Program-made: the position numbers and the translations under genes | Origin: Planctomycetales bacterium | Lineage (GTDB): Bacteria; Planctomycetota; Planctomycetia; Pirellulales; Pirellulaceae | Direction: 5' to 3' | NCBI GenBank assembly: GCA_020426845.1 | Contig: JAGQPF010000342.1 | Coordinates: 1-64,000, forward strand | DNA: 64,000 bases | Notes under the pieces: model-generated | The model's database searches: none | Told to the model about the DNA's origin: nothing | What the model saw: the letters and a program-made list of their open reading frames with translations, nothing else | Shown: positions 1,553 through 57,481 of the stretch, one piece after another | Numbering within the stretch: position 1 is the first letter of the stretch | Layout: every line of letters starts with the position of its first letter

Positions 1553-1812
1553 GTCGCCTGACGCAGCCGGTCTTCTTGCCCGTTTTTGGGGGGCCATTGG
1601 CAAGACCCGGGGAATTTGCACCATGGATGGCTGCAGTGCTCGTTGTCGGATGGCTTCGCCGACGTCACCCTTTAGAATGGACACTTGCGGGGCGGCGGTT
1701 ATTTGAGGGACCTAGCGGCTGAAGGACACCCAAACAGACAATCGAAATGCGGTGCGGCGAGTGCCGGAACCACTATTTTTTTTCGGCCTCCGTCCGAAGC
1801 GAAGGAGTAGCG

Positions 1813-3159
1813 GTGAGTATGCGTTGCGTGAATGTGCCTTGTCCGGGTTGCGGATGCGTGTGCGACGACGTGTCGCTCGCGTTTGACAAGGGAAAGTTGG
1901 TCGCCTTTGAACCACGCTGTGAGTTGGGGGAGCGGTGGTTTCGAACTCACAGCCAAGATGGCCATTCCATCGCAGCGATTGACGGGCAACCCGCGTCGAT
2001 GTCGGCCGCGTTGGATCGTGCGGCGAGCCTCCTTTCGCAGGCAGACTACCCGCTGATCTACGGACTTTCGCGCAGCGCCACGCCGGGGCAACGTGCCGCG
2101 GTCGCGCTCGCAGAACGGCTCGGCGCAGCGATCGACACAACCGCATCCTTATGCCATGGCCCCTCGATCATGGCGTTGCAGGAAGTGGGCGAAGTGACCT
2201 GCACATTGGGAGAGATTCGCAATCGTGCGGACTTGATCATCTTTTGGGGATGCCATCCTGCCGTTTCTCATCCTCGACATGCCGAGCGTTATTCGGTCTT
2301 CCCGCAAGGACGACACACTCCTTCGGGACGAACGGATCGGACCATCGTGATGGTCGGCGAAGCGGGGCAAGTCGAGCAATGGCGCCTCGACGCGGACGGC
2401 GCCAAGCCGGATTTTGTGCTCCCGATCGATTCGACCCAGAATTACGAAACGCTCTCCACGCTGCGAGTGATGTTGCGCGGAGAAACAGTCACAGGCGCCT
2501 CCCCCGAGCTTCAGCGCCTGCTGGACTGCATGTGCCGCTGCAAGTATGGGGTCATCTTCTTTGGACTGGGGATCACGGAGACCAGCATGTGGGACGGACG
2601 CCCTCATCAACCGACGGGGCACGTCAACGTTGCGGCACTCTTGCAACTCGTTGCGGATCTGAATGCCGTCACGCGGTTCACGGCCCGCCGCATGCGCATG
2701 CAGGGAGACGTCTCCGGCGCCGACAACGTGCTGTGCTGGCAGACGGGCTATCCGTTTGGCGTGGACATGTCGCGTGGCTACCCACGCTACAATCCCGGTG
2801 AATTCACCGCCAATGAGCTATTGGCCGAGCAGAACACGGACGCCTGCCTGCTGGTTGGCGCCGAAACCGTGCCGTATTTCTCCGCGCCCGCGCGACGACA
2901 CCTCGAGTCGATCCCGACCATCGTGCTCGACTATCCAGGCGCCGTGTTGGACTTTACTCCGTCCGTTCAATTCACCACGGGAGTGTATGGCATCCACGCC
3001 GCCGGCACGGCATACCGAATGGATAACGTTCCCGTCTCACTTCAGGCGCCGCTCGCCAACAACGCGCCCACCGATGAACTCGTGCTCAACGAACTCTTGA
3101 ATCGGTGTCCCATGGAGCTCACGAGAGGCAACGGACACTCGCAAGCGGATACCCCCTAG
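1813..3159 (+). CDS. fhcB: Formylmethanofuran dehydrogenase subunit B-like protein (FwdB/FhcB)
   Basis: This is homologous to the large subunit of formylmethanofuran dehydrogenase. In bacteria with tetrahydromethanopterin-linked C1 metabolism the Fhc complex interconverts formyl-methanofuran-type carriers and formate. The N-terminus has CPGCGCVCDD followed by RCELG, giving cysteines at about 10, 13, 17 and 36, which matches the C-x2-C-x3-C-x(n)-C cluster of FwdB. A later SLCHGP (Cys ~114) sits where archaeal FwdB has its Mo/W-ligating Cys or Sec, and FWGCHPAVSHPRH is a family signature. GTG 1813 is chosen because AAGGAG lies 5 bases upstream; ATG 1819 is the alternative. The gene stands alone: fhcA, C and D are not adjacent. 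The 448-residue length is normal for the family. Confidence 0.85.
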   Translation: MSMRCVNVPCPGCGCVCDDVSLAFDKGKLVAFEPRCELGERWFRTHSQDGHSIAAIDGQPASMSAALDRAASLLSQADYPLIYGLSRSATPGQRAAVALAERLGAAIDTTASLCHGPSIMALQEVGEVTCTLGEIRNRADLIIFWGCHPAVSHPRHAERYSVFPQGRHTPSGRTDRTIVMVGEAGQVEQWRLDADGAKPDFVLPIDSTQNYETLSTLRVMLRGETVTGASPELQRLLDCMCRCKYGVIFFGLGITETSMWDGRPHQPTGHVNVAALLQLVADLNAVTRFTARRMRMQGDVSGADNVLCWQTGYPFGVDMSRGYPRYNPGEFTANELLAEQNTDACLLVGAETVPYFSAPARRHLESIPTIVLDYPGAVLDFTPSVQFTTGVYGIHAAGTAYRMDNVPVSLQAPLANNAPTDELVLNELLNRCPMELTRGNGHSQADTP

Positions 3160-3200
3160 CCAATCAGCGTGTTGAATAGATCGCAAGTCCGCAGGCAACC

Positions 3201-3752
3201 ATGACCAATCGCACGAGCCAAGTCGGTGGAGAAGGACAAAGCAGTTGGGGCGGACGCTTCGTTACATTTCTTCTTTTTGGCATCGGCATCGGGTTCGGCG
3301 TACCGTCGATCTGGGTCTATGAGCAGTATAAATCACTATTTTCCGGCGAGAACATCAGTCTCAGCGAACTTCCTCTTCCGTCCCTGTTCATACCCGAATT
3401 CGACCCGCAAACCGGCGACTACAAGACAAAAGAACCGAACTATAACGTGGCAGATCGCGTGCTGTGGCGATTATTGCAGGCCAGGGGATTTGGACTGATC
3501 CTGCTTGTTGGCGGATACGTTGCACTGGTGATTCCAAGACACCGCGCAGATTACAGGATTTCTACAGCGGCAATTTTCTGCTACGTCGCTTTAGTCGCTT
3601 GCTGCATGGTCGCAAGTTTCTTGGTCATGCCGTTGGTAGCGGCGACGTTGGGAATCGTAATTTGGGGGCGCCGTGCTTTTTGGCCATCTTTTGGGGTGGG
3701 GCTTGCTAGCGAGGCGTTGGCGATGGCGGAGATCGCCTCGCTCGTGTCCTAA
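3201..3752 (+). CDS. Small membrane protein of unknown function
   Basis: The 183-residue protein has an N-terminal hydrophobic segment (~residues 20-38), a polar loop rich in acidic and aromatic residues (~40-90), and three more hydrophobic segments from ~95 to 165. It starts 42 bases after the FwdB-like gene on the same strand and could be cotranscribed, but nothing in it suggests a C1 role. Family not recognised. Confidence 0.6.
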   Translation: MTNRTSQVGGEGQSSWGGRFVTFLLFGIGIGFGVPSIWVYEQYKSLFSGENISLSELPLPSLFIPEFDPQTGDYKTKEPNYNVADRVLWRLLQARGFGLILLVGGYVALVIPRHRADYRISTAAIFCYVALVACCMVASFLVMPLVAATLGIVIWGRRAFWPSFGVGLASEALAMAEIASLVS

Positions 3753-3762
3753 CAATTGCATT

Positions 3763-4326
3763 CTATTCCGCAGAGACTTTTGAGAATGCCGTTGCCGAAT
3801 CCTTAAAGGCCGCTAGTTGCAGCGTCTTTGTCAACTCCGCCTCGCTGACGACGAATTCAACCAAAAACTTATCGTAGGTGACGCCCTCGGGTCCCCCCTT
3901 CTCTTGCCCGAGCAGCTTGCTCGAAACCGTCTTGATCGCGTCCGGCGGAACGACATGAGTGGCTACCGGCTCCGGAATGTCCGCAAACAGTGCGTCGGAG
4001 TGTTGGTTGTTGATCCACTTGTCCAAGTCGTCGGAGGTTGCGCTCTTGGCAAACACATGAACCTTGCCGCTGGTGGCAAACCCCTTCCCCTTGTCGGCGA
4101 GGTGAACCACGACAACCGCATTCTGCTTCGCCAGAGGATAAAAGACTCTCGTGTTCGAAAAACCAATCAGCGTTTGATTCGCCACGGTTCGCACGATGGC
4201 GCCACCTTCACCGCCTACCTTGAGCTTCACTGGGTCGGCGGCCTCGGACTTCCCGCCTGTTGCCCAGCAGAGCAAGGCCAAGCAGATTGCGATTCGATTG
4301 TGATTGTGATTGTGAGTGCGATTCAT
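3763..4326 (-). CDS. Exported protein of unknown function
   Basis: The 187-residue protein begins with a His/Asn-rich n-region (THNHNHNR), then a hydrophobic stretch IAICLALLCWATGG and a likely signal peptidase site near ...SEAADP. The mature part is small and soluble with no cysteine pair or known motif. Its ATG overlaps the stop of the upstream gene as ATGA at 4323-4326, so the two are probably translationally coupled. Confidence 0.6.
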   Translation of the reverse strand: MNRTHNHNHNRIAICLALLCWATGGKSEAADPVKLKVGGEGGAIVRTVANQTLIGFSNTRVFYPLAKQNAVVVVHLADKGKGFATSGKVHVFAKSATSDDLDKWINNQHSDALFADIPEPVATHVVPPDAIKTVSSKLLGQEKGGPEGVTYDKFLVEFVVSEAELTKTLQLAAFKDSATAFSKVSAE

Positions 4327-4985
4327 CGATTTCTCCCGGAAATGTTGTGGGTTTGAGAGGTTCCTTGCTCGGCTGCGGCGTCCTTGGATTTGTCCGGCTT
4401 CTTCGTATCCTTGTGGATATGAATTTCAAATGGCTGCTGAATGATCACCCGCTCCGGAGTGCCCGCTGGCTTGACTTTGGCGAAAGCCAGGAGCAATTCC
4501 TGGATAGCGACTTGGTCGTCTTCGGTTGCCTTGGCAACTTCGATCTGGCCGGCCGCCGCTGCGGACTCGACCGACTCAGCTGTCTTTCCGGCGATGGCCA
4601 GGATGAGGGACTTCTGCAGCTGCACCTGTTTCAGCAACGATCTTTGCGAGCGCAGCTTTCCGAGAAACTCCGACTGCAAGTCAGGCAGACGCCCCTTCTC
4701 GACATTGACCGCGATCTTCTTCCCGAGGGCTGCGTTTTCCTGCAGTGCCTCTTCCATCAATCCGGCTCGCGCCAAGGCGATCGCATGCGCCGCCTGAACA
4801 TCCCAGCCGAGCGGCTCGGTGGGCCGACCGTCCACCGCCATTCGGTCGCTCACGCGAATGGCCGGATAGGGCGCTGTCAGCTCAACCATCGCTTCGTTGA
4901 GATCCTCCGGATGACCGGTCGGGCCTCCATCGCCGGCGACCCTTGTAAGGCCCTGTGGACCAGCCGTCAGGAGCGGCCAGACCAT
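4323..4985 (-). CDS. Unknown protein, probably N-terminally truncated, containing a palindromic repeat
   Basis: This 220-residue ORF has a helical Ala/Glu-rich middle (~50-150) and a Lys-rich C-terminus. Residues ~9-25 (GPQGLTRVAGDGGPTGH) are the translation of the 50-bp palindromic element at 4914-4963. The reading frame stays open upstream only to a stop at 5052-5054, inside another repeat cluster, and has no alternative start there. The present gene may therefore be the 3' remnant of a longer one whose 5' end was replaced by repeats. It overlaps the next gene by ATGA. Function unknown. Confidence 0.5.
   Translation of the reverse strand: MVWPLLTAGPQGLTRVAGDGGPTGHPEDLNEAMVELTAPYPAIRVSDRMAVDGRPTEPLGWDVQAAHAIALARAGLMEEALQENAALGKKIAVNVEKGRLPDLQSEFLGKLRSQRSLLKQVQLQKSLILAIAGKTAESVESAAAAGQIEVAKATEDDQVAIQELLLAFAKVKPAGTPERVIIQQPFEIHIHKDTKKPDKSKDAAAEQGTSQTHNISGRNR
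4914..4963. repeat. 50-bp palindromic element, copy A (inside an ORF)
   Basis: CCGGTC-GGGCCTC on the left pairs with AAGGCCC and a distal GACCAG on the right. The loop contains a TCGC/GGCGA mini-palindrome. Copies B (9944-9993) and C (57361-57410, inverted) are nearly identical. The element is read through by the ORF at 4323-4985. Confidence 0.8.
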
Positions 4986-5031
4986 CGCGGCGAGCTTCGA
5001 GGCGGCATTGTAACTCGACTCATTCGGGTGG

Positions 5032-5632
5032 GCGAAGGCTGAAGGCCTTCCTCAACGTAGCCTGGGGCGAGCGCAGCGACGCCCCGGGTTGATCAACAGC
5101 GATCCATTGAAGGCTGAAGGCCTTCCTCACGAGGGGTAAGCGCAGCGCCGCCCCGGGTGGTGCCCCTCGGCTTCGTGAATTGTGCCCCGGGGGCGCACGC
5201 GACGAACCGGCGCCTGCCCGGGGCGTTGCCCCAGGATACGTTGACGAAGGCTTTCAGCCTTCAATTGAACGGGGCGGCGGCATAACCCGGGGCAGCGCTT
5301 CGCTCGCCCCGGGCTACGTTGAAATTGGCCTATGGCCAATAAATGTCGCAGGCGATATTCCGCAAGTTCGAAGGGCGCACGCGCCAAACCGGCGCCGTCC
5401 TGGACAGCGATCCATTGAAGGCTGAAGGCCTTCCTCAACGTAGCCCGGGGCGAGCGCAGCGACGCCCCGGGTTGTTCAACAGCGATCTCCATTGAAGGCT
5501 GAAGGCCTTCCTCACGAGGGACAAACGCAGCGCCGACCCGGGTGGCGCTCCTCGGCTTCGTGAATTGTGATCCTCGGTGCGCACGCGCCGAACCAGCGCC
5601 CACTCTGAGGCGTTGCCCAGGACGTGAGTGTT
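5032..5632. repeat. Repeat cluster with a ~210-bp direct duplication
   Basis: A segment starting gaaggctgaaggccttc at 5034 and running to about 5243 is repeated from 5417 to about 5626. Each copy carries two gaaggctgaaggccttc palindromes plus a GC-rich gcccgggg/ccccgggt segment. An inverted, diverged copy (gaaggctttcagccttc) lies at ~5252-5270. The same core occurs at 130-150. The stretch from 5016 to 5721 has no convincing gene; open frames there are repeat translations. Confidence 0.75.
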
Positions 5633-5721
5633 AACCAGCGATGAAAGATCTGCTGGCAGGAGTCGCAAAACTGCCATCTCGCGTCTCGTTTCGACCACTG
5701 GACCTGCCAACGTGGCCTGCA

Positions 5722-6234
5722 TTATCCGGCGTGAGACAGGATCAGGATCGAGGTGCCATACCATAAGCCAACCCCCAAGGCGGTGATAATCGCGGTGGGC
5801 AAACTGGGACGAATCCAGTGGGCGGGTGTGAAGAGCAAAGTGCCCAGCAACATCACGAGCAGGAAAACGGTGTCGCGATTCGAAGTGACGCGGTTCGTAG
5901 CGATCGAATCGAGTTGCCACTTGAGCATCTCCGCCGGCGCAACCAATACTTGAATCAGGGCGCCCAGTGGATCCGCCGCGCCCTCAAACAGCGCGAGAGC
6001 CAACAGCGCGCCGTTATAGACCAGTAGCACGGCGACCAAAGCGCTGAGTGCGTATAAATTCCAATACTTGTCAACGAAGTGGCCAATGATTCCCGCAGTC
6101 ACTGCGGCAAAGGAAAAGGTCGCGATTGCGGCAGGCTCAGCTTCCCGAAAGTGCCAGACCCAAACGGCGGCAGCGGCCGTTAACGCTGCAACCTGGCGCA
6201 GACTGAATTGGCCTTTGCGCCGATCCCCGTTCAA
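5722..6234 (-). CDS. Small integral membrane protein of unknown function
   Basis: The 170-residue protein has about five hydrophobic segments: residues ~12-27, 35-52, 58-82, 118-135 and 140-165. A connecting loop contains LKWQLDSIATNRVTS. The start is read as TTG 6234 because AAAGGAG lies 7 bases upstream and no ATG is better placed. It is on the same strand as the kinase gene and 133 bases downstream of it. Not recognised. Confidence 0.6.
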   Translation of the reverse strand: MNGDRRKGQFSLRQVAALTAAAAVWVWHFREAEPAAIATFSFAAVTAGIIGHFVDKYWNLYALSALVAVLLVYNGALLALALFEGAADPLGALIQVLVAPAEMLKWQLDSIATNRVTSNRDTVFLLVMLLGTLLFTPAHWIRPSLPTAIITALGVGLWYGTSILILSHAG

Positions 6235-6367
6235 TCTTCAGCTCCTTTCCACCGAATGGGCCGCACCGAATCCGGTGAGTGGATACGTAGTCATGCCGAG
6301 CTTATCGACGTTCAAGGCTGCCGCCAGACTCCTCCATCTGAACGACGGCACTCCTCACATTCGCGTC

Positions 6368-8863
6368 CTACGTGGGCTGCTGGCCGTTGGCCGGCCTTCC
6401 GGATTTGTCCCCTGCCGGTTCCGGCCTGTCCGGCTCGTCCTTCGCGTCCTTGCGTCGCCAGACTCCTTCGCCATCGAGGGCAAGTGCGAGGTGGCCGGGG
6501 ATGCTGAATTCGACGACCTTCATCCGCCCCGCGCCGATCTGCACGGCAAAGTTCACTCTGCCGGCATAGAGTTTTGGCGCCTCGAACTCGACCGTTCCGC
6601 GCAGTAGCTTGGCTGCGGCGTCGAGCTCAATTGTCGTGCGTTTGACGTACTCGGGCTGAATCACGGACACATAGCCATGTTCCTGGCTGAGTGACATGGC
6701 ATCGTGCAATTCACGCGGTTTCGGCGGGCGATCCGCCAGCAGGCGGAATGCCTTCAATTCCCCGGGGGCTCCACCGAGCGGAGCGCCCATCAGCAATACG
6801 ATAGAAAGTGGTTCGCCTTCGATAGCCTTTGCTGGATGGATCGCGGGCTGCGCCTTCGCCAACTTCTCCCACTGTGCGTTGGGAATGCCCGCGGCGTGGC
6901 TGAGTGCGTCGTTCAGTTTTTCTTGAAACTCCGTTTTGCTCTGCCCCGTCTTTTCGAGCATCTCGGCGATCTCCGGCCCGACGCCAAGCTGCGGGCGAGC
7001 GTCATCCCAGCTCAGCGTGATCGCCACGAACTCGAAGCCCTGCTTCGATGCTTCGAGCATGGAGGCCGTGTCGTCCGTACGGTGCGTGACGGTTCCCCAG
7101 TTGCCTCCTGCGGGAAGCAACACCATTGTGTGAACGAACTCGGTCTCCCGAGGAGAGAGGTGCTCGTCTAGGTCGACATTGACGGTCGCCCCTCCTCGCA
7201 ACATGGCTCTGGGGATCATCAGCGGGGAAGTCCGAGTGCGAACGCCATCTTTCGGGACGTCGTCAAAGGTCACGTTGAGCGACACCGAAAGCCAATCTTT
7301 TCGACTTTCCTCTGCGACGACTGCCAGCCTGCCGGTTGTCTCGCCGGAGTCTTCAGGAAACCCCAGTTCGTGTTCGCTAGCGATCGTCAGCTTGCCCTTG
7401 GAGATGTGGAGGAGGCGAACGACAACCTGCGAGAGCCGATTGCCTTGGAGTTTCCAAGATCGGCTTACCGTTCCGAGGTGCGTGGACCACGCTCCGTCAT
7501 TCGAGATCCGCAGGGAGGGCTGATCGGAGGCGATCCCCTTGCCGGAATGCGTGGCCACCGTCGACGGGTCACGCACCATCGCTTCGTTGCGGAGAACGTC
7601 CGTTGTTGGCTTTTTGTAGTCGACGTTCGGATCGCTGCGACCAAACATGAATAACCACGCGAACACAACTGCCACCGTCAATGCCGCTGCGCCCAACCAC
7701 ATGACCGCCGAGTTTCGTTGTTGCGGCGCCGTGGCTACCACAGTCCCGGGTGATCGATCGTCGACAAATGCCTGCAGCGCGACGGCCACTTCATGCGGCG
7801 ACTGAAAACGCTCGGCCGGATCCTTCGCCGTCATGCGCGCGATGACCGACTCGAGCTCCATTGGAATATCGTCTCGCAACGTTCTCAAAGCGTCGGGTTC
7901 GGCCGTTGCGTGGCTCTTCAGCTTCTGCGTGACGCTGCCATCGGCAAATGGCGGTTGGCCGGAGAGCAGAAAATAGAGTGTCGACCCCAGGCTATAGATG
8001 TCGCTGCGGATATCCGCGCTGCGGGCGTCCTCCGCCTGTTCGGGCGACATGAAATCAGGTGTGCCCATGATGGATCCGGCGGCGGTCAAATCGCCGCGAG
8101 CGGCGACCGTTTCAGCTTCTGAGACCGAGTTGGGCGCCAATGAAGCGAGACCAAAGTCGAGAATCTTGACCGTCCCATCCGCCATCACCATCAGGTTGTG
8201 GGGTTTGATGTCGCGGTGCACCATGCCTTGTTCGTGCGCGTGTTGCAGTCCGATGGCAGCTTGCCGGATGAATTCACACGCCTCGGCAACCGGCAGCGCG
8301 CCTCGCTCGTGTGCGACGTGAGCAAGGTCGACACCGTCAACGTACTCCATCACGAGAAAGTGAACGTCGCCGGCCTGCTCGGCGTCAAAAGCCGTCACGA
8401 TATTGGGGTGCGTGAGCTTGGCGGCAGCCTTCACTTCGCGATGAAATCGATCCACCGCGTCTGCCTTGCGCATAAGCTCGGGCTTGATGATCTTCAGCGC
8501 AACCGTACGGTCCATCAGCCGGTGCCTGGCCCTGTAGACGTCGCCCATGCCGCCCTTGCCAACGAGCTCGAGCACTTCATAGCGAGGGTGATCGGCCAAT
8601 TGCGCAGCCACCTCTTCATGTGACGAAGAATTGTCAGCCGCGCCATTTTCAACGGTCCGATCAACGGTCTGATCCGGCAGTTGCCTGGCTGCCTTGAGAA
8701 GTCCCACAAACGTGTCAGCCGACGAGATGCCGACGATGGTCTCGCAGCATGGCTGACACTCGCTGATGTGACCGTCGATTGCCACCGCTCGGTCGGGTGG
8801 CAACTGGCCAAGACTGTAGGCGCTGAGCTCTTCTCGCGTCGGGTGGGGCGAAGATTTGGACAT
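6368..8863 (-). CDS. Membrane Ser/Thr protein kinase with N-terminal zinc-finger-like motif
   Basis: The 831-residue protein has three parts. Residues 1-60 resemble an anti-sigma zinc-binding domain, with H32-x3-C36-x2-C39. Residues ~95-360 form a Hanks-type kinase: GKGGMGDVY glycine loop, Lys124 in VALKII, catalytic Asp218 in HRDIKPHN, DFGLA and GTPDFMSPEQ. A single transmembrane segment (VMWLGAAALTVAVVFAWLF) near residue 385 follows, then a ~420-residue, presumably periplasmic, domain of unknown type. Start ATG 8863 places the zinc-finger at the N-terminus; longer readings run into the upstream gap. It follows the ECF sigma gene by 109 bases on the same strand. I infer that it senses an envelope signal and controls or is controlled by that sigma factor; the substrate is unknown. 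Confidence 0.85.
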   Translation of the reverse strand: MSKSSPHPTREELSAYSLGQLPPDRAVAIDGHISECQPCCETIVGISSADTFVGLLKAARQLPDQTVDRTVENGAADNSSSHEEVAAQLADHPRYEVLELVGKGGMGDVYRARHRLMDRTVALKIIKPELMRKADAVDRFHREVKAAAKLTHPNIVTAFDAEQAGDVHFLVMEYVDGVDLAHVAHERGALPVAEACEFIRQAAIGLQHAHEQGMVHRDIKPHNLMVMADGTVKILDFGLASLAPNSVSEAETVAARGDLTAAGSIMGTPDFMSPEQAEDARSADIRSDIYSLGSTLYFLLSGQPPFADGSVTQKLKSHATAEPDALRTLRDDIPMELESVIARMTAKDPAERFQSPHEVAVALQAFVDDRSPGTVVATAPQQRNSAVMWLGAAALTVAVVFAWLFMFGRSDPNVDYKKPTTDVLRNEAMVRDPSTVATHSGKGIASDQPSLRISNDGAWSTHLGTVSRSWKLQGNRLSQVVVRLLHISKGKLTIASEHELGFPEDSGETTGRLAVVAEESRKDWLSVSLNVTFDDVPKDGVRTRTSPLMIPRAMLRGGATVNVDLDEHLSPRETEFVHTMVLLPAGGNWGTVTHRTDDTASMLEASKQGFEFVAITLSWDDARPQLGVGPEIAEMLEKTGQSKTEFQEKLNDALSHAAGIPNAQWEKLAKAQPAIHPAKAIEGEPLSIVLLMGAPLGGAPGELKAFRLLADRPPKPRELHDAMSLSQEHGYVSVIQPEYVKRTTIELDAAAKLLRGTVEFEAPKLYAGRVNFAVQIGAGRMKVVEFSIPGHLALALDGEGVWRRKDAKDEPDRPEPAGDKSGRPANGQQPT

Positions 8864-8972
8864 GGGGAAACTCTTGACAGTGGCAATTGCGGGCTGGGGA
8901 CAATGTCTGGGGCGGGCTCGCCGAAACGAACCCCACCCTCCTATTGCCAAGACCCGTTCTCGCAATTTCTTG

Positions 8973-9584
8973 TCAGCTGTTTTCCGAAAAACATGAAGAC
9001 GACTCGACCAATCCCTCGGATTCGGCGCGCAAACGCCTAAGGACACGAGACTTAGCGAGGCACACGGCATTCAGGGAAATCCCCAGTTCCTCCGCCACAA
9101 CGTCCGGCTTCGCCCCGTCCAACGCCACGCGACAGAACGCCGTCCAGGTGTCTGAAGTGAAATGAGGCTGGGCAAGGGTGAGCAGTTGACGAAGCACAAA
9201 CTGATCGTGCTCACGATTCCAGATCAGGCTCATTTCACTGGAGGGGTCGTCCAATTGCGCCAATCTGGCATCGATGTCCGAATCGCCTCTCGCCTGTGGG
9301 CGACGATCCCGAGATCTCCAGAACTTGCGCAGCCGGTTGACCAGGATCGCCTTGAGCCAACCGCGAAATGCGCCGGGCTGACCCGCGTGCTCGAATTGAT
9401 CGAGATCTTTCGATACGGCCAGCAGCACTTCCTGCGTAAGATCATCTGCATCGCTGACTTGGACGTCGTACTTCCGCAGCCAGGTCTGGAGCAAGGGCGC
9501 ATAGAGCTCCATCAGCCGATCCCAACTTTCGGATTCGGGGGAGCGACGAAGGCGGTTGAGCAAGCTGAGCGACGTCTCATGCAT
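8973..9584 (-). CDS. ECF-type RNA polymerase sigma factor
   Basis: The 203-residue protein shows sigma region 2 (LYAPLLQTWLRKY followed by DADDLTQEVLLAV) and sigma region 4 with a helix-turn-helix at DVVAEELGISLNAVCLAKSR. A region of ~40 residues between them is longer than a minimal linker. The arrangement, a sigma factor followed directly by a Ser/Thr kinase, is a known planctomycete pattern (ECF groups linked to kinases). No classical anti-sigma gene is adjacent; the zinc-finger-like motif in the kinase may take that part. Confidence 0.85.
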   Translation of the reverse strand: MHETSLSLLNRLRRSPESESWDRLMELYAPLLQTWLRKYDVQVSDADDLTQEVLLAVSKDLDQFEHAGQPGAFRGWLKAILVNRLRKFWRSRDRRPQARGDSDIDARLAQLDDPSSEMSLIWNREHDQFVLRQLLTLAQPHFTSDTWTAFCRVALDGAKPDVVAEELGISLNAVCLAKSRVLRRLRAESEGLVESSSCFSENS

Positions 9585-9664
9585 TTTGACCCACGACCCC
9601 TTCCGGCTGACCGCTTGGTTTCAACACGGCCGCCTCAACACACTTCAAAACGGCAAGAACAGGC

Positions 9665-10171
9665 TCAGCTCTCATCCTCCTCATGATCTTCGTGCGTGCG
9701 AACGAACATCGCGCGCTTCTGATCAGGGAGCGAGTAGTCGAAACCGCAGTCGCGCAGAAAGCTCTCCGACGAGGTGATCGCCATCAGCTCGAGCACCTGT
9801 TTGTGGCGGGCCCAGTTGACGCAGCGTTCAACCAGCTCTCGGCCGAGCCCGCGGCGTTGGAATCGCACATCCACGGCGAGACACTGCACTTCCGCGAGCT
9901 TGCGCGAGTACATTTCGACAGCGGCGAAGCCGACAATCTCGTGACCGGTCGGGCCTCCATCGCAGGCGACCCTTGTGAGGCCCGGTGGACCGGCCACCGC
10001 CACAAAGCCGGACAGAGCGAGCCGATCCAGCTCCTCGCGTGTGCGGCGCAGCAGCAGGCGGGCTTTGACAAACGGCTTCAATAGCTGCTCGACGGCGTCG
10101 ACATCGTCGAGATTGGCCTCGCGGACGTACACCTCGCCGGGCGTGTCGCTCATGTCACTCATGAAAGGCAC
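9665..10171 (-). CDS. GNAT N-acetyltransferase, N-acetylglutamate synthase-like, with an in-frame repeat insertion
   Basis: The 168-residue protein has a GNAT fold close to ArgA-type synthases: REANLDDVDAVEQLL at the N-terminus, LAEVQCLAVDVRFQRRGLG with the acetyl-CoA loop (QRRGLG, ~105-110), and a C-terminal ITSSESFLRDCGFDYSLPDQK typical of that group. Residues 61-77 (GPPGLTRVACDGGPTGH) do not belong to the fold; they are encoded by the palindromic element at 9944-9993 and sit in the turn between FVAVA and EIVGFAAVEMYS, where relatives have only about two residues. The insertion is 51 bases, so the frame is kept. The gene overlaps the 3' end of the ArgE-like gene. A role in arginine synthesis is inferred. 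Start could be M1, M4 or M7. Confidence 0.8.
   Translation of the reverse strand: MPFMSDMSDTPGEVYVREANLDDVDAVEQLLKPFVKARLLLRRTREELDRLALSGFVAVAGPPGLTRVACDGGPTGHEIVGFAAVEMYSRKLAEVQCLAVDVRFQRRGLGRELVERCVNWARHKQVLELMAITSSESFLRDCGFDYSLPDQKRAMFVRTHEDHEEDES
9944..9993. repeat. 50-bp palindromic element, copy B (inside the GNAT gene)
   Basis: The left arm CCGGTC-GGGCCTC pairs with GAGGCCC-GGTG-GACCGG on the right. The 19-base middle holds TCGC-AG-GCGA. It is translated on the minus strand in the same frame as copy A. Confidence 0.85.
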
Positions 10172-11337
10172 CAGTGTTGAATCAATTTTTGGTAAAGAGC
10201 AACGCCCGCGTCCAACTGGGAGCGTTCGATGAATTCGCCCGCCGTGTGGGCCTGCGCGATGTCGCCGGGCCCCAGCACCGCCATCTGACGCAGATCTGTC
10301 AGCACTCCGCCATCGGTGCCGTAGCAGACGGTTTGCGAGCGTTGTTGGCCCGCGAGCCCAAGCAGCTCGACGATGTAGGCGGAATTCGGGTCAGTGAACA
10401 CGGGCGCGGCGTTGTTGAAGCCCTGGAATTCGAGCCCGTTGGCCTCGGCGGCCTGCCTCGCCCGCTCAAGCAGCTGCTCGGCATCCTGTCCCGGCATGGG
10501 TCGGAAGTAGACGGTGCAGACGCTCTGTGGAGGCTTGATGTTGATGGCGTGAGTGTGGTCGTTGATGCCGATATTCCAACTCACGACGGGAGGGTCAAAT
10601 CGATCGTCTTGCCAGCCGGGGTCCGACTCCAACTCGTCGTGCATTTGTTTCATCACTTGCAGGAACGGAATCATCGCCAGATTGGCGTTGCGGCCTCGCC
10701 GGCTGCTCGAATGCGCCGACTCGCCGCGCGCGGTGGCAATCAGCCCCGCAGTGCCCTTGTGCGCGTGCACGACCTGCAGCCGGGTCGGCTCGCCAATCAC
10801 CGCCCGCGTCTGGAGCTCGCACATCTCTCCGAACAGACGCGACCGCTCGGCCACCTGGCGGGCGCCGCCGTAGCCAATCTCCTCGTCCGCCGTGGTGGTG
10901 ATGAACAGCGGCGCCTGGAGTGCGCCGAGCTCGACGCGCGAGGCGGCTGCCAGCATGCAGGCGACAGACCCTTTCATGTCACAGCTGCCGCGTCCGTACA
11001 GCCGGTCGTCGGTCAGCGTCGGCTCGAACGGCCCGCCTGGCCCGCTCCAATCGTCCGCCGGCACCACATCCGTATGGCCGAAGTAGGCCATGCCTGGAGA
11101 ACCATTCCCAACTGTTTGGGCCTCTATTGACGCCCGAGTTGGTCCCGCCCTGCCGATCACATTGCATTTGACCGTGCCATGGTCGTCCTCATAGTCGACC
11201 CGCTCGGTCTCGAACCCGAGCTCCTCGAGCCGTTGCTGCACGTAGTCGGTGACGTCGCGGTTCGAGCGGCGGCTCACGGAGTCGAAACGCACCAAGTCCA
11301 TGGTGAGCTCGACGGGGTCAATCGTTTGGCGCGTCAT
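10159..11337 (-). CDS. argE: M20 family peptidase, acetylornithine deacetylase/ArgE-like
   Basis: The 392-residue protein has the M20 metal and catalytic motifs: H88-T-D90 in GHTDVVP, D120 in GRGSCDMKG and E152-E153 in TTTADEEIGY. A GEPT motif and a C-terminal HTAGEFIE motif are also present. The dimerisation domain lies at ~190-300. The family includes ArgE, DapE and related deacylases; pairing with an acetylglutamate synthase-like GNAT favours ArgE (N-acetylornithine to ornithine), which is inference. Residues ~66-81 (TRASIEAQTVGNGSP), just before the HTD motif, look like an insertion because relatives go almost directly from the preceding strand to GMAYFGHTDVVP. The DNA there is a palindrome (see 11108-11142). 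Confidence 0.8.
   Translation of the reverse strand: MTRQTIDPVELTMDLVRFDSVSRRSNRDVTDYVQQRLEELGFETERVDYEDDHGTVKCNVIGRAGPTRASIEAQTVGNGSPGMAYFGHTDVVPADDWSGPGGPFEPTLTDDRLYGRGSCDMKGSVACMLAAASRVELGALQAPLFITTTADEEIGYGGARQVAERSRLFGEMCELQTRAVIGEPTRLQVVHAHKGTAGLIATARGESAHSSSRRGRNANLAMIPFLQVMKQMHDELESDPGWQDDRFDPPVVSWNIGINDHTHAINIKPPQSVCTVYFRPMPGQDAEQLLERARQAAEANGLEFQGFNNAAPVFTDPNSAYIVELLGLAGQQRSQTVCYGTDGGVLTDLRQMAVLGPGDIAQAHTAGEFIERSQLDAGVALYQKLIQHWCLS
11108..11142. repeat. 35-bp palindrome inside the ArgE-like gene
   Basis: CCAACT...GGGC on the left pairs with GCCC...AGTTGG on the right. The minus-strand half AATAGAGGCCCAAACAGT resembles GATGGAGGCCCAACCGGT of the 50-bp family, so this may be a shortened, diverged member. 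The reading frame through it differs by one base from that in the GNAT gene. Confidence 0.55.
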
Positions 11338-11378
11338 GGCGTCGTCCCGGGGAGAGTAGGCTGGCTGAATTGATACGC

Positions 11379-12248
11379 TCAGTTGTGGCGGATGTCCAGG
11401 CGCCCATCACGAAGCAACCCAAACAGGGCGGCCGCGATCAAGTCGGCAGTGGCGCCGGGGTTGCGGCGATTGCCGTCGCTCCGCATCCAAAAGTCCAGCT
11501 CACTCAACGCGTAGTGGTAGGACTCGCTATCCGGAGCGCCTTGGTCGAGCGCGTGCGCAGCGCGATCGCGAGCCTCCTCGGCCACTCGGTCCCCGCACTT
11601 GCGACGAATCAACGAGTCGCCACGCTGCGACAGGCTGATCAGCTGGACGTGCACAATGCCCCGCGACCACCCCATCTCGGCGCAATGCCGCTCGAGGTTC
11701 CGGGCCAGCACGTCGAGCACGTAGGCGAAGTCGGTCGCGTACTGCTCCGCCACCTGATCCCGCTCGGCCGCAGCCTGCATGGCGGCCAACAAACTGTCAG
11801 GCGCAGGCCCTTGGACATCCATCGACTCCGCGCTGCCCAGTCCTCCCGGAGCGGCGAGCCGGATCGCCTGGTAGGTCGCGCCGGCGTCTGCCGGGGTCAG
11901 TCGCCCGAGCACTTGCCTGACGGCTTCCCGCGAAAGCGGCGCCGCGTCGTCGACGGCCGCCAGCGGCGCCAACAGCAATGCGATGCCAAGATTCGGGTTG
12001 CTGCGAGTCGCGCGGGAGGTGGCTTGAACGGCCTGCAGAATCGCCGCGCCAACGCCCAGCTCGGCGACTCGTTCCAGCGGCGGCGCGATCTCGACGGCCG
12101 CCGCGCAGAAGTCGTAAAAGGTCAGGTCCGCGAAGTCGGCGCCCCGATGCACATTGCCAACCTTCGGGGCAGACGCCTCCATCAGGCAAGCCAGTGTGGC
12201 GCACCGTCCCAGATGACGTCGAAACTCGAGTTGTTCTTTGCGATCCAT
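11379..12248 (-). CDS. Triphosphoribosyl-dephospho-CoA synthase-like protein (CitG/MdcB family)
   Basis: The 289-residue protein matches the CitG fold: GNVHRGADFADLTFYDF near residue 30, SNPNLGIALLLAPLAA near 85-100 and a C-terminal NPGATADLIAAALF. Classical CitG makes the prosthetic-group precursor of citrate or malonate lyase acyl carrier proteins, but no lyase genes are present here. Homologues also occur in methanogens and in bacteria with tetrahydromethanopterin-linked C1 metabolism. The neighbouring pterin synthase-like gene and the FwdB-like gene 9 kb away point that way, but this is inference. It lies 88 bases after the pterin gene and 41 bases before the ArgE-like gene. Confidence 0.75.
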   Translation of the reverse strand: MDRKEQLEFRRHLGRCATLACLMEASAPKVGNVHRGADFADLTFYDFCAAAVEIAPPLERVAELGVGAAILQAVQATSRATRSNPNLGIALLLAPLAAVDDAAPLSREAVRQVLGRLTPADAGATYQAIRLAAPGGLGSAESMDVQGPAPDSLLAAMQAAAERDQVAEQYATDFAYVLDVLARNLERHCAEMGWSRGIVHVQLISLSQRGDSLIRRKCGDRVAEEARDRAAHALDQGAPDSESYHYALSELDFWMRSDGNRRNPGATADLIAAALFGLLRDGRLDIRHN

Positions 12249-12336
12249 TGGGCCTGGCAGGCGGTTCAGTTAGCAGCGTGTTGAACAACAACGCACCACA
12301 GGCAAGTGTCTTTTCAACGGCGTCTTATCTCATCTC

Positions 12337-12837
12337 TCATGGCTCCATCGGCCCAAGCGGACCGGAGTCCCATTCGCCCCATTGGCCGTGATTCTCGTCA
12401 ACGCCAATCGCAACTCGCGCGGGATGGATGCCGCGCTCCGCCAACGCCTTGAGCAGCAGGCCGCCAATGTGCTTGGCCAACAGCTCAGCCGTCGTGTTTC
12501 GGACCGGCAGCAGCACGCAGTCCTCGAGCGGAAACACCCAGCGGCGATCCTCGAAGGTGGCGGTCACTTCGCGTTCGGTCTGCGTGACGCGGATCGTGGG
12601 GTGCTCTGTCGGCAGCAGCACATGGTGATCCAATGCCAAAACAATGTCACGCAGCTCGTCTCGCAGGGCGATGAAGTCGACGACGTAGGCGTGCTCCTCG
12701 AGCGGCCCCCAGACGTCGGCGCGCACGCCGTAATTGTGCCCGTGCAAACGCTCGCAGATGTTGGCTCCGAACGTGATGAAGTGAGCGGCGCTGAAAACCA
12801 GCTGCTCCTTGTGGAGGTGAACGCGAAAGCTCTCCAT
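12337..12837 (-). CDS. 6-pyruvoyl-tetrahydropterin synthase / QueD-like protein
   Basis: The 166-residue protein carries the PTPS-fold signature: FSAAH with H19, then C28-x3-H32-G-H34 in ICERLHGHNY, giving three zinc-binding histidines and the nearby cysteine typical of QueD-type enzymes. A DHHVLL segment follows at about residue 70. It differs from a minimal 120-residue QueD by an extra central beta segment (TEREVTATFEDRRWVFP). Possible roles are queuosine (6-carboxytetrahydropterin) or methanopterin synthesis; next to a CitG-like gene the second is attractive but unproven. It starts 3 bases after the acyltransferase stop. Confidence 0.8.
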   Translation of the reverse strand: MESFRVHLHKEQLVFSAAHFITFGANICERLHGHNYGVRADVWGPLEEHAYVVDFIALRDELRDIVLALDHHVLLPTEHPTIRVTQTEREVTATFEDRRWVFPLEDCVLLPVRNTTAELLAKHIGGLLLKALAERGIHPARVAIGVDENHGQWGEWDSGPLGPMEP

Positions 12838-12840
12838 GCA

Positions 12841-13500
12841 TTAGACTCCGGCGCGGTGCTTGACACGGTGCACGGCATCTCGATGGCAAACGTCAATGCG
12901 TGCGGACAATTCGCAAAGCAGCTGCTCGTCGTCGCGCTGCTGGTACCACTCTTGCGAGATCGGCTCACCGACGACGACATCCACGACCGACGGCAGCGGC
13001 ATCAGTCGCTGGCGCGGCCAGGACTCGAAGGCGCCGGCGATGCCAACGGGCAGAATCGGCACCCGGCCGCGTCGCGCGAGCGAGCAGACCCCGGGCATCA
13101 TCGGCTGCAAGGCGCCGTCGCGCGAGCGCGTGCCTTCGGGAAAGACGAGCACGGGCTCGCCGCGCCGCAGACGCTTCAGCGTCTCCTTCATTCCAGCCAG
13201 GCCCAGCCCGTCGCGGTTGAGCGGAATGGCGTCGAGAAATCGGATCACCGGACCGAGCGGAAAACGGAACAGCGTCTCGCGCGCCAGGTAGTTCACTTTG
13301 CGATCGAACGTGCAGCCGATGAGAATCGGATCGAGATAGCTTTGATGGTTGGCGCAGACCAGCGCGCCGTCCAACTCGTCCAGACGCCAGCGATGGTGGC
13401 AGCGAAGACGCAAAGTCGCGACCCCCATCATGCGGCTGGTCCACCTCACGGCGCGATACCCAAGCCGCTTGTGCAGCGGCAGCTGAAACTCAGTCGGCAT
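12841..13500 (-). CDS. plsC: 1-acyl-sn-glycerol-3-phosphate acyltransferase family protein (PlsC-like)
   Basis: The 219-residue protein has the HX4D catalytic motif (H52 and D57 in NHQSYLD) and the phosphate-binding FPEGTRS motif near residue 120, followed by PILPVGI. This family transfers an acyl chain to lysophosphatidic acid at the inner membrane. The start overlaps the end of cmk by 11 bases. The coupling cmk-plsC is seen in many bacteria. Confidence 0.88.
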   Translation of the reverse strand: MPTEFQLPLHKRLGYRAVRWTSRMMGVATLRLRCHHRWRLDELDGALVCANHQSYLDPILIGCTFDRKVNYLARETLFRFPLGPVIRFLDAIPLNRDGLGLAGMKETLKRLRRGEPVLVFPEGTRSRDGALQPMMPGVCSLARRGRVPILPVGIAGAFESWPRQRLMPLPSVVDVVVGEPISQEWYQQRDDEQLLCELSARIDVCHRDAVHRVKHRAGV

Positions 13501-14152
13501 GGCGAGCCGCCTCCCGCACCACCTGCTCCAAACGCTCCACCACTTGGTCGAAGCTCATGCCGTCGGTGCAGATCCGCACGGCGTCCTCCGCCTGCATGAG
13601 TCGGCCGACCGCGCGCTGCTCGTCCTGCGCATCGCGCTGTTGAATCTGCTCGAGCAATTGGTCGCGGGGCATCTCGACGCCGTTGGCCGCCAGCTCGAGT
13701 TGCCGTCGCCGCGCTCGCTCCTCGGGGGTCGCCGTCAGAAAAATCTTGCACTCGGCGTCGGGAAACGCGACCGTGCCTTGGTCGCGTCCTTCGGTGACCA
13801 CATTGCCGAGCTCCTCTGCGAGTCGGCGCTGCAGCTCGACAAGCTGGCCGCGGATGCCGGGGTTGTCGGCGGCCAGCCGCGTCGCATTGGTGACCCGCAG
13901 CGAGCGGATCTCGCCGGTGACATCGCGTCCCTCGAGCTCCACCTTGTGCTCGCTAAACTCGAGCGTCAGCCCCTCGGCTCGCCGAGCCGCCTCATCGTGC
14001 GGCAGCTCGTCCCAGCCGTGGTTCAACAGCGCCAGCGCGACGGCCCGATACATGGCGCCGGTGTCGAGAAACCGATAGCCGAGCCGCTCGGCGAGGGCTC
14101 GGGCCACACTGCTCTTGCCGGCGCCTGCCGGGCCGTCGATAGTCACGATCAT
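13490..14152 (-). CDS. cmk: Cytidylate kinase
   Basis: The 220-residue enzyme phosphorylates CMP and dCMP with ATP. The P-loop GPAGAGKSS is at residues 7-15, followed by DTGAMYRAVA and the nucleoside-binding TEGRDQGTVAFPDA, with the family's RxxxRR-type lid (EERARRRQ). ATG 14152 overlaps the stop of the upstream gene as ATGA, which decides the start over a possible upstream one at 14182. Confidence 0.92.
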   Translation of the reverse strand: MIVTIDGPAGAGKSSVARALAERLGYRFLDTGAMYRAVALALLNHGWDELPHDEAARRAEGLTLEFSEHKVELEGRDVTGEIRSLRVTNATRLAADNPGIRGQLVELQRRLAEELGNVVTEGRDQGTVAFPDAECKIFLTATPEERARRRQLELAANGVEMPRDQLLEQIQQRDAQDEQRAVGRLMQAEDAVRICTDGMSFDQVVERLEQVVREAARHAD

Positions 14153-16929
14153 TCTGCCCACTCCGCGCGTACGATCAGCCATTCCCGTCCGGAAAGTTCG
14201 AGGTGCGCTGCGCCCTGTTCAACGCGCGCCTCGGAGATCATCTCGCCATCCAGGTTGACCACCCGGGCGCGAGCGATCGGGCGCAGCGATTGCAGACGCA
14301 CTTGCGCGGCCCGTCCGGCAGTCTCAAGCAGCCTCGCCTCAAATCCGATCACTCGGCCGTCCGCCACCAACGGCTGCCAACGGGTGGCGGTCACGTTCTT
14401 GGCCTGCAGGTGGAACAGCCACGCCGACGTGGCCGTCCCCGGGGCCGCCAGCCCGTCGCTGGAACGCGGCGGCGCCGCCAGCGCCAGCGCCTCGGCCAAG
14501 GGATAGGCGACATCCACGCCGATGCCGAGTTGAAAGGCTCGCGCCGGCTCGTTGCGGACAATCAGCAGCGTGTCGAGCGACGACAAGCCGACCCGGCGGT
14601 GGTAGGGCAAACCGCGAGGAAAGATGGTGGTCGCGTGCGCGCCGGTCCGCATCTCGATGTAGTGGGAGGCGTCGATCCGCTTGCGGTCCTCCATCGAGTG
14701 CCTCGCTTGATTGACGTCGCAGGCCAGCTCCGCCGACTCGTCGCGCCAAGCGACGCGGCTGGCGAAGTAGGAATTCCAAGGGTCAGCCCGCAACTCGGCC
14801 AGCGGATCGAGCTCAATCTCCACGCCGAGGATCCGCGAGCCCCGGACGACTCGCAGCGTCTGCTGAAAGGTCGCGGCCGTCTCGCCCTTTTCATCCAACA
14901 ACCGCCCGGTGGCGCGAATGGCCCCCTCGAGTCGCGTGGCAACAAGTGTCTCGATGTTGTCAGCAACCATGGTGGAATACTTGGCGCGCTCGCCCGACGA
15001 TCCGGAGACTCGCATTGCCAGCTGCTGTGACATGCGGTTGCCTCGAGTTTCGTAGCTCCGCACGGCGCCGATGCCGCCCGACTGCGGATTGACGGTGATT
15101 TCGAGAAACTCGTTCCGCAACATCAACCCTTCGACCAGCACCGGGTCGCTGCGCTTCGGCGAATACTGAGGGCCCGGGCGAAGGTGGACGTAGCCCATCG
15201 GGGGCAAGTCGACGACGGCGGCGGGCTCGCCCGCGTGATCAATGGCATAGACGGGCGCGACGCGCTCGGGCGGCGAGTTAAAACCAGGCAGCGGCACCAG
15301 CACCCGCCGCACCGAGGGGTACGGATTCCAGAGCATCACGCCGTCGCCGGCCGCCAGTTTCAGGGCCTCATTGGCATGCCCGGCGGCCGCGCGATGCGTA
15401 GCGGCCGCGACGGAGGCGTCGGCGTTGTCCACCAGTGCGCGAGTCTCGCACGCTGCATCGAGCTCCGCAATCGCTTCGTTTGGCAGGTCGCGTGGCCGGC
15501 GATCAATGCTGCTCGCGAGAAAACCCAAGTTGGCGGCCGCGACAAGCTCGGCCCGTTCTCGGTGATAGTCGACCCAGCGCGACAGCGGCGCCTCTTGTTG
15601 TCGGACAATCGCTTGGCGGAGGTACGGAGAGCGAAATCGCGCCGCGGCCAACCGCTCCGATTGACTGGGGCGGTCGGTGTCCGAGAAGTAAGCATCAATC
15701 GTGATCAGCTTGCCGAGAGCGGAGGTGCGACGCGCTGCGCGGCGCAAGTCTTCCAAATAAGGGCTCGCTTGTCCCGGCCAATGAGCGATCACCATGGTGG
15801 CGACGTGGTCCATGTCCATCGTCTCGCCCGTCTTCAACGCCAGCCCTAAAAACGTCTCGGGCAACGCGGCGTTCAACGGCGCCTTGGCGATGGCCTCGAC
15901 CGTTGTTCGATCGCTGCCCTCCCAGAGCGTCTTGACCTGAGCCCCCTCGGGAAACCGCCCGTCCTCAAACGTCGCGTGGAGCGCAAACGGCATCTGGAGT
16001 TTCTGCAGCAACTGGGGCAGCGTGGGCGACAGCCCGTATCGTCGCCGCCCAAACACGCGCGGACGCTGCCCGAGCCGCTCGGCGACCGCGTCGCGGCCCT
16101 GTTGCAGTTGCGTGGCAACGGCCTCCATGGGCAGCAGCGGCAGCGGCAACTCCCGAGCATCGCAAGCGATCAGGCCGACGGCGCCGTCACGCCACTGTGC
16201 CGTGAGACGCTCGGCGACAGGTGTTCCGGCCAACGCTTCCAACACTCCCGCCGATAGCAGAAAACTGACCGGGCTGCCGGAATCCAATTCCGACTCCAGC
16301 CCCGCGCCCAACGTGCCGGGGCCCAACATTACCAAATCGATAATGTAGGAGTCGACGGAATAAAATAGATCTCGCTCTTCACTAAGCAGATCGAAACAGG
16401 CCGTCAGCTTCTCCTCGGCCAGTTCAAGGTTGGCATCCGCCAGAGCGTTGGCGGCTGCGACAACCTGGTTGGCGAAGTGCACCTCATCCAGATTGCTGGA
16501 GTATCGCATCTGGCGAGTGAGAATTTGTACTTGGAGATAGGCGTACCCGAGCGCAAAGAAGTCTTTGACGTAGGCAGCGTCGAACGCTGGCCCGTCGTCC
16601 AGCGCCTCCAAGGCGATCGTAACGATCTCGTCGCGAGAATCCTTGCGGCGAATGGGACAGCCACCGCTCTCCTTGGCTCGTTGAACGAAGCCGGTCGGCA
16701 ATTCCGTGTGGCTGACGGGTGGAATCACCAGTAGTCGGCCCTCGAGTTCGTTCGGCGGATCGTCCATCCGCGACCAGGTCGGCATCGACTGGGCTGAGTG
16801 AATGAAAGCGGGGTGCCAAAGTGACGTCCAGGCGGCCAGTAGTCCGTTGGCCTCGTCGCCTTCCGTGTAAACCGGAAAATCCTCGATGCTGTGGCATGGC
16901 AGCAGGATGACCAATTCCTGAAATCTCAT
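14149..16929 (-). CDS. Large conserved protein, glycoside hydrolase GH38/GH57-like
   Basis: The 926-residue protein has no signal peptide. Its first third begins MRFQELVILLPCHSIEDFPVY and reads like a polysaccharide-processing barrel. The last ~330 residues look like the beta-sandwich end of alpha-mannosidase-type enzymes: LRNEFLEITVNPQSGGIGAV, then a long beta-rich segment ending in ...IARARVVNLDGE. I infer a carbohydrate-active enzyme but cannot name the catalytic residues. It is the first gene of the cmk-plsC string and is coupled to cmk by ATGA. Confidence 0.55.
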   Translation of the reverse strand: MRFQELVILLPCHSIEDFPVYTEGDEANGLLAAWTSLWHPAFIHSAQSMPTWSRMDDPPNELEGRLLVIPPVSHTELPTGFVQRAKESGGCPIRRKDSRDEIVTIALEALDDGPAFDAAYVKDFFALGYAYLQVQILTRQMRYSSNLDEVHFANQVVAAANALADANLELAEEKLTACFDLLSEERDLFYSVDSYIIDLVMLGPGTLGAGLESELDSGSPVSFLLSAGVLEALAGTPVAERLTAQWRDGAVGLIACDARELPLPLLPMEAVATQLQQGRDAVAERLGQRPRVFGRRRYGLSPTLPQLLQKLQMPFALHATFEDGRFPEGAQVKTLWEGSDRTTVEAIAKAPLNAALPETFLGLALKTGETMDMDHVATMVIAHWPGQASPYLEDLRRAARRTSALGKLITIDAYFSDTDRPSQSERLAAARFRSPYLRQAIVRQQEAPLSRWVDYHRERAELVAAANLGFLASSIDRRPRDLPNEAIAELDAACETRALVDNADASVAAATHRAAAGHANEALKLAAGDGVMLWNPYPSVRRVLVPLPGFNSPPERVAPVYAIDHAGEPAAVVDLPPMGYVHLRPGPQYSPKRSDPVLVEGLMLRNEFLEITVNPQSGGIGAVRSYETRGNRMSQQLAMRVSGSSGERAKYSTMVADNIETLVATRLEGAIRATGRLLDEKGETAATFQQTLRVVRGSRILGVEIELDPLAELRADPWNSYFASRVAWRDESAELACDVNQARHSMEDRKRIDASHYIEMRTGAHATTIFPRGLPYHRRVGLSSLDTLLIVRNEPARAFQLGIGVDVAYPLAEALALAAPPRSSDGLAAPGTATSAWLFHLQAKNVTATRWQPLVADGRVIGFEARLLETAGRAAQVRLQSLRPIARARVVNLDGEMISEARVEQGAAHLELSGREWLIVRAEWAE

Positions 16930-17253
16930 GGCGCGTCAAATCGGTAGGTGGGCGACGCGGTCCCGGCCCGCCAAGCGAGCCCCCAACAGGAGGGGCACGT
17001 GGCAATCGGGAGAAACGCGCGAAAGCATGGGGCGACTGGATCGGGCTGATTGGGGAGGATGACGTCGTCGGGCGCTGGGGCTCTCTGGCGACAGCGAACG
17101 AGTGATCCTCACGAGCCCACGGAAGCGTGCCGAGGGCATTGGCCGCAGGCGACTTCACGATACCGTCTGGGGCATTGGACGTCGAGTGTTGGAACAATCG
17201 TTATGTTCCTGCCAGACAATCAGTTAGCGAGGTCGCGGCGGCGGGGAGATTTC

Positions 17254-17283
17254 TTGACATTCGGGAGCGACCGTCACTAAAGT
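17254..17283 (+). promoter_or_regulatory. Possible sigma-70-type promoter upstream of the pilM-like operon
   Basis: TTGACA at 17254-17259 is followed after 18 bases by TAAAGT at 17278-17283, about 300 bases upstream of ATG 17581. Between 16930 and 17580 no gene is visible. The leader also carries short repeats of the type ggccgttgaaaaacacc (17362-17400). Assignment by eye only. Confidence 0.3.
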
Positions 17284-17580
17284 AAGTAGAGGAGCAGCTC
17301 TCCCTCTTTTCCCGTGTTCTTGTCGCGTTTGAGAAGGCCGTCAGGAGGCCGAAGGTTAGGAGGCCGTTGAAAAACACCGTTGGAAAACACCGATTAGGCA
17401 ATCGACACTGCAGTGTTGGCCGCCAGGTCGATTTCAACAGGCCGTTGGGCTCTTCGCCGTGGTTGTCCACAACTCGAGGGGCCACCGATAGTTGCGCATG
17501 GCAAAACGCCTTAAGATTGTCGGTTTGCCGGTTTGCGTGCTCGTCTTGTCATCTGCTTGCATTGCGTTAAGGAATAGGTA

Positions 17581-19926: not shown

Positions 19927-19929
19927 GTC

Positions 19930-57360: not shown

Positions 57361-57410
57361 ACCAGTCCACCGGGCCTCACAAGGGTCGCCTGCGATGGAG
57401 GCCCAACCGG
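57361..57410. repeat. 50-bp palindromic element, copy C (intergenic, inverted)
   Basis: In reverse orientation: CCACC-GGGCCTC ... GAGGCCC-AACCGG, with tcgcctgcga in the middle. It lies between the divergent genes at 57073 and 57482; the rest of that 408-base gap has no gene I can support. Confidence 0.8.
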
Positions 57411-57481
57411 TCTCCATCGCCAACCGGGCACGAAGGCCGACGGGACGGTGGGCGGAGCAGTTTTCAACGCGGAGCGGGGAC

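Follow-up and report, generated by a model that had tools for sequence, protein, structure and literature searches.

A planctomycete genome carries hundreds of copies of a short palindromic element, one of them inside the coding sequence of a GNAT-family acetyltransferase. The element is depleted in genes, yet it lies in frame in many of them. Very probably, in our view, it is a short dispersed palindrome that is not autonomous but mobilised in trans, is safe for the reading frame and is purged by selection where harmful. Its mobility is inferred from the distribution of the copies.

Copies in the window and the GNAT insert

The window is a stretch of 64,000 nucleotides from contig C138, one of the 777 contigs that make up a 9.52-Mb metagenome bin. 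It contains three copies of the element, as a first-pass annotation had proposed, with cores at 4921–4953 (+), 9951–9983 (+) and 57372–57404 (–). The chance expectation for three such cores was 0 in 100 dinucleotide shuffles. Copy B (9944–9993, +) measures 50 bp with both end repeats, corresponding to one 45-bp unit plus one extra ACCGG. Its core is a 33-bp hairpin, GGGCCTCCATCGCAGGCGACCCTTGTGAGGCCC, in which 19 nt separate the arms of a 7-bp inverted repeat, and the flank profile places its left ACCGG repeat at 9944–9948; the right repeat is at 9989–9993. Copy A (4914–4963, +) has two core mismatches and the right end TGTGGACCAG. It lies in an ORF at 4323–4985 (–) and, as annotated, shares the frame of copy B. 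The first start of that ORF is only 10 codons away, however, and the copy may be 5′ of the true gene, whose start may fall downstream. Beside copy A, positions 5030–5180 hold further repeated-looking sequence, GAAGGCTGAAGGCCTTCCTCA and GTAGCCTGGGGCGAGCGCAGCGACGCCCCGG. Copy C (–) is intergenic and inverted, again as annotated, and its core is exact; the coordinates given earlier, 57361–57410, were off by one, the profile yielding 57362–57411.

The ORF at 9665–10171 (–), with an uncertain start (10171 or 10162), holds copy B antisense. It matches PF00583 at 2e-10, and the copy is translated within it as GPPGLTRVACDGGPTGH, in agreement with the claim that a palindromic element is read in frame inside a GNAT protein. 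GNAT matches occur in 103 of 149 genomes of the family (the host genome included), a few of these matches being distant GNATs. The insert peptide is absent from all 29 orthologues aligned, and in the modal class, 14 of the 29, the loop is 15 residues shorter. Deletion of the 45 nt between the ACCGG repeats gives GFVAVAGHEIVGFAAVE, equal in length to the closest relative (GFVAVAGDRVVGFAAVE, versus GFVAVAGPPGLTRVACDGGPTGHEIVGFAAVE in the window). The proposed frame-keeping addition therefore stands, but its size had been put at 51 nt and 17 residues; because the ends of the element repeat ACCGG, the net gain fits 45 nt and 15 residues. A caveat to the alignment is that the loop varies naturally among relatives, extending up to 24 residues beyond the shortest form, and some relatives have longer loops of their own, indicating that this turn tolerates insertions and deletions. 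The scenario in which distant orthologues all carry an equivalent loop can be set aside, since there are orthologues without the peptide and without the DNA. A GNAT structure predicted by AlphaFold without an alignment (pLDDT 40) was useless and was discarded.

Copy number and anatomy of the unit

The annotation had raised the possibility that the element is repeated beyond the window, and named the lack of repeats elsewhere in the genome as a result that would speak against it. Roughly 400 copies are present. A pattern search of the whole genome, with up to three mismatches allowed, returned 411 matches, divided evenly between the two orientations (205 and 206), compared to 0 for the reversed pattern. 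The own-genome listing gave at least 62 other matches beside copy B.

The consensus of 101 distinct arrays with flanks is ACCGG-TC-(33-bp core)-GGTGG-ACCGG. Each 45-bp unit consists of the near-invariant hairpin core and a variable 12-bp linker. Units are arranged head to tail between ACCGG-like ends, with 67 single, 27 double and 7 triple arrays (n = 101), and the tandem period is 45 bp in 31 cases and 40–44 bp in a few. The core is exact over all 33 bp in 101 of 142 copies and ∼98% conserved per base, values that are favoured by the initial detection of copies via the core; a further search of the fetched regions, which tolerated eight mismatches, still gave few diverged copies. Conservation is ∼73% per base in the linker, and ∼63–92% over 17 flanking positions, declining with distance from the core.

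The consensus folds into a hairpin bearing a 4-nt bulge, with a folding z score of –2.35 for the core alone and –3.36 for the core with consensus flanks. The inner 7-bp inverted repeat is conserved. For the outer one, the left and right flanks did not covary in the inverted sense across the 101 arrays, which argues that an outer stem is not maintained as structure. The flanks do correlate as direct repeats at an offset of exactly 45 bp (z = 3.1, P = 0.002). The end 5-mers are identical in only 13 of the 67 single copies and in many others differ by one or two bases, so a clean or strict target-site duplication is not supported. At four loci (L006, L024, L040, L166), the first or last unit of an array is incomplete, broken off within the loop of the hairpin (following CATCGC or CATCGCAGGCG); these partial units are possibly a trace of array joining or trimming.

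Location relative to genes and maintenance of frame

In the window and 20 fetched stretches, 31 of 40 arrays are intergenic, at a coding density of ∼86%. Among 71 arrays taken in contig order regardless of genes, 19 by a strict and 22 by a loose reckoning lie inside genes (∼27%), where "inside" means that codon usage supports coding on both sides under a home-made codon model rather than a standard gene finder. At least 23 of the 101 arrays examined sit within genes that are themselves well supported. Between genes, the distribution of arrays over convergent, tandem and divergent gaps reflects gap length with no further preference, nor was there a strand bias with respect to local GC skew of the kind that would signal lagging-strand transposition.

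The annotation described the element as open in several frames, and it is in fact stop-free in five of six. All five are used by in-gene arrays, on either strand, and the frame containing TGA never occurs among the strict in-gene cases. Because detecting genes by their open frame would be circular, arrays for the frame test were chosen by coding signal in both 150-bp flanks, in any frame. At three falling thresholds, the frame was kept without a stop in 14/14, 16/16 and 17/17 arrays; flank windows of 120 and 90 bp brought in one stop and one frame change, both in marginal cases. Of the tandem periods, 11/11 inside genes were divisible by three, versus 22/30 elsewhere (Fisher P = 0.08).

Inserts in other proteins

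Several conserved enzymes exceed their homologs by the length of one or two units. In a nicotinamidase (SSTG-RASIAGDPCEARGTG-LADYL), the insert adds 15 residues over 24 of 24 orthologues, and the protein is also 15 residues longer at this point than a solved nicotinamidase (2wt9). Its orthologues mostly retain ACC GGx codons at the T-G of the insert site. PabB is 15 residues longer than 18 of 24 orthologues, and a malonyl-CoA-ligase-like enzyme with two units has 30 additional residues relative to 3nyq and 4gxq. RfbB is 14 residues longer than 1bxk and 1g1a, a difference within loop-length noise. In two further cases, Pfam domains are interrupted: three units split the HATPase_c domain of a histidine kinase into two stretches, and two units split a DegT aminotransferase domain, of which Pfam recognises two stretches. 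The three interrupted genes for which good orthologues exist fit insertion at an ACCGG-type site, and the exact 15- and 30-residue excess in conserved enzymes lends support to the earlier suggestion of a mechanism that puts peptide inserts into proteins. Predicted peptides spanning the insert junctions are VAVAGPPGLTR, TGRASIAGDPCEAR and LVDKPVGPPSQATLVR.

Occurrence outside the host genome

The element was thought to be potentially widespread, which holds within the host genome but not across planctomycetes. A pattern search gave no match in the family's 118 other genomes, nor was any found in a further 391 from the phylum. A covariance model with strict filters likewise gave none in 145 relatives (one genome, G171, excluded), and the element was not found in viral contigs, plasmids or phages. 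A scan of genome contigs yielded at least one match. Of 195 relatives in all, only G171 (HKST-UBA47, same order, another family) had matches; these copies, one of them exact, lie near the end of contig C60. By tetranucleotide profile, this contig resembles the host genome (r = 0.78) more than the bin it was assigned to (r = 0.69), and we therefore judge it to be probably misbinned. The same contig encodes, at 1578–19943, a predicted giant protein of ∼6,100 residues.

Mechanism and alternative explanations

We propose that an enzyme acting in trans moves the element. Each joining event, at an ACCGG-like site, would lengthen the DNA by a net 45 bp, which is divisible by three, and arrays might then lengthen or shorten via slippage or unequal exchange. 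Insertion into a gene would usually leave an open frame with a loop insert, since 45 is 3 × 15 and five of six frames are stop-free. Copies harmful to proteins would be removed by selection, and the remaining inserts are predicted to be translated rather than bypassed. The core is far better conserved than the linker, which one burst of copying of a 45-bp unit would not explain. This contrast weighs against the proposal, as do the differing end 5-mers, and it suggests either that the core alone is copied and every insertion acquires a fresh linker, or that the core continues to be maintained. A mobilising gene was not found in the host assembly, which is incomplete. No autonomous parent with the same ends was seen in the ∼0.8 Mb sampled, where half-copies were truncated arrays or chance, and a k-mer search detected no longer shared flank. 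An unlikely but consequential version of the proposal is a novel system, in which an enzyme joins the 45-bp unit at ACCGG-like sites, with no classical duplication and with the core identical throughout the genome, in genes as well, while the linker drifts. If true, this would amount to a frame-safe natural peptide inserter, extending proteins in 15-residue steps.

Selection or gene conversion could preserve the 33-bp core as a functional site, for example for a nucleoid or repair protein, with nothing selfish about it. In line with this idea, 25 of 33 in-gene cores are exact while their linkers have drifted. However, a site of this sort sits poorly with the lack of gap-type preference beyond length, the lack of orientation bias, the presence of the core in unrelated genes and five frames, and its absence from the 118 other family genomes searched; we regard this explanation as improbable. 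We rate as still less probable that the element belongs to the ordinary REPs, in which case a RAYT (Y1 tyrosine transposase) encoded by the same genome would mobilise a hairpin with a GTAG/CGTC tag. The size, hairpin, high copy number and intergenic preference are all REP-like, REPs inside genes have been documented, chiefly in Opitutus terrae and R. conorii (PMC3733652), and the host genome has five Y1_Tnp genes. On the other hand, no GTAG, GGAG or CGTC tag lies by the stem (the flanks of the 101 arrays read TC...GGTG), no copy of the element is found beside any of the five Y1_Tnp genes in flanks of up to 1.5 kb, arrays are head to tail with a fixed period rather than inverted pairs, and strand bias with local GC skew is lacking. 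The Y1 search covered an incomplete assembly that could hide a RAYT. At three loci (L084, L085 and L086, on contigs C33, C72 and C737), RAYT-size Y1 genes adjoin other, GTAG/GTGG-tagged REPs (e.g. GTAGGGCGGCCCTTCCGGGCCGCC and GTAGGACGGACTTCCAGTCCGTC), separate from the 45-bp element. A different tandem repeat, with a 130-bp period and 91% matches, lies at 2067–2353 of L082 (contig C137), near an IS200-type transposase gene.

In yeast mitochondria, conserved genes contain short GC-rich hairpins, termed byps, which are skipped by the ribosome. The in-gene copies described here are also short GC-rich hairpins in conserved genes, and ribosomes might hop over them to give proteins without the insert. 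With bypassing, neither the frame nor freedom from stops would have to be preserved, and hence frame keeping speaks against it: the frame is kept without a stop in all 17 arrays, which were chosen without that criterion, and in-gene periods are multiples of three in 11/11 cases, against 22/30 outside genes. Bypass thus appears extremely improbable. An assembly or adapter artefact of the metagenome bin is barely credible. The bin is fragmented, with some contigs ending in arrays and 6.5% contamination, but the sequences on either side of an in-gene copy encode one and the same conserved protein, diverged copies exist, and neither intergenic enrichment nor frame keeping would be expected of an artefact.

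Comparison with known systems

Rickettsia is the best-known case of coding palindromes that often lie in frame. The annotation likened the element to Rickettsia palindromic elements (RPEs), in a planctomycete setting, and the comparison is supported by its repetition, its in-frame occurrence in genes and the existence of orthologues without the insert. Like RPEs and the Wolbachia palindromic elements, it is palindromic, has many copies and occurs both between genes and in frame in unrelated metabolic genes; in R. conorii, nearly half of the palindromic elements are intragenic (PMC10969869, PMC3767692). RPEs, however, are 100–150 bp long and reside in obligate intracellular alphaproteobacteria, whereas the planctomycete element is a modular, GC-rich 45-bp unit, short of that length, and the likeness drawn here is one of features. 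With REPs and BIMEs it shares a hairpin core of 20–40 bp, hundreds of copies and a mostly intergenic location with some intragenic cases (PMC3733652, PMC2817692); it differs in having a fixed 45-bp tandem period and in lacking the GTAG/CGTC tag, a flanking RAYT and inverted pairs. As in MITEs, the element is short, with imperfect terminal inverted repeats and no capacity to encode a transposase, but it is shorter than typical MITEs, and neither a parent insertion sequence nor a consistent target-site duplication was found.

Two mitochondrial systems, the byps of Magnusiomyces and the coding palindromes of Nematomorpha, also consist of palindromes inside protein-coding genes (PMC6649704). In contrast to byps, the planctomycete element keeps the frame; the Nematomorpha palindromes are long perfect repeats and not a single dispersed family. 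Given that the element is RPE-like but shorter, modular and from an unrelated host, and that it departs from REPs in tag and RAYT linkage, we place it among the protein-coding palindromes, where it forms a new variant, and count it with neither the RPEs nor the REPs. A 2024 review called the same route of protein change in other prokaryotes only conceivable (PMC10969869). The planctomycete element indicates, as judged from predicted proteins, that short selfish DNA can add peptides to proteins well beyond the parasites in which this was originally described. It makes the effects of such inserts on enzymes, and the identity of the mobiliser, testable outside that obligate intracellular group.
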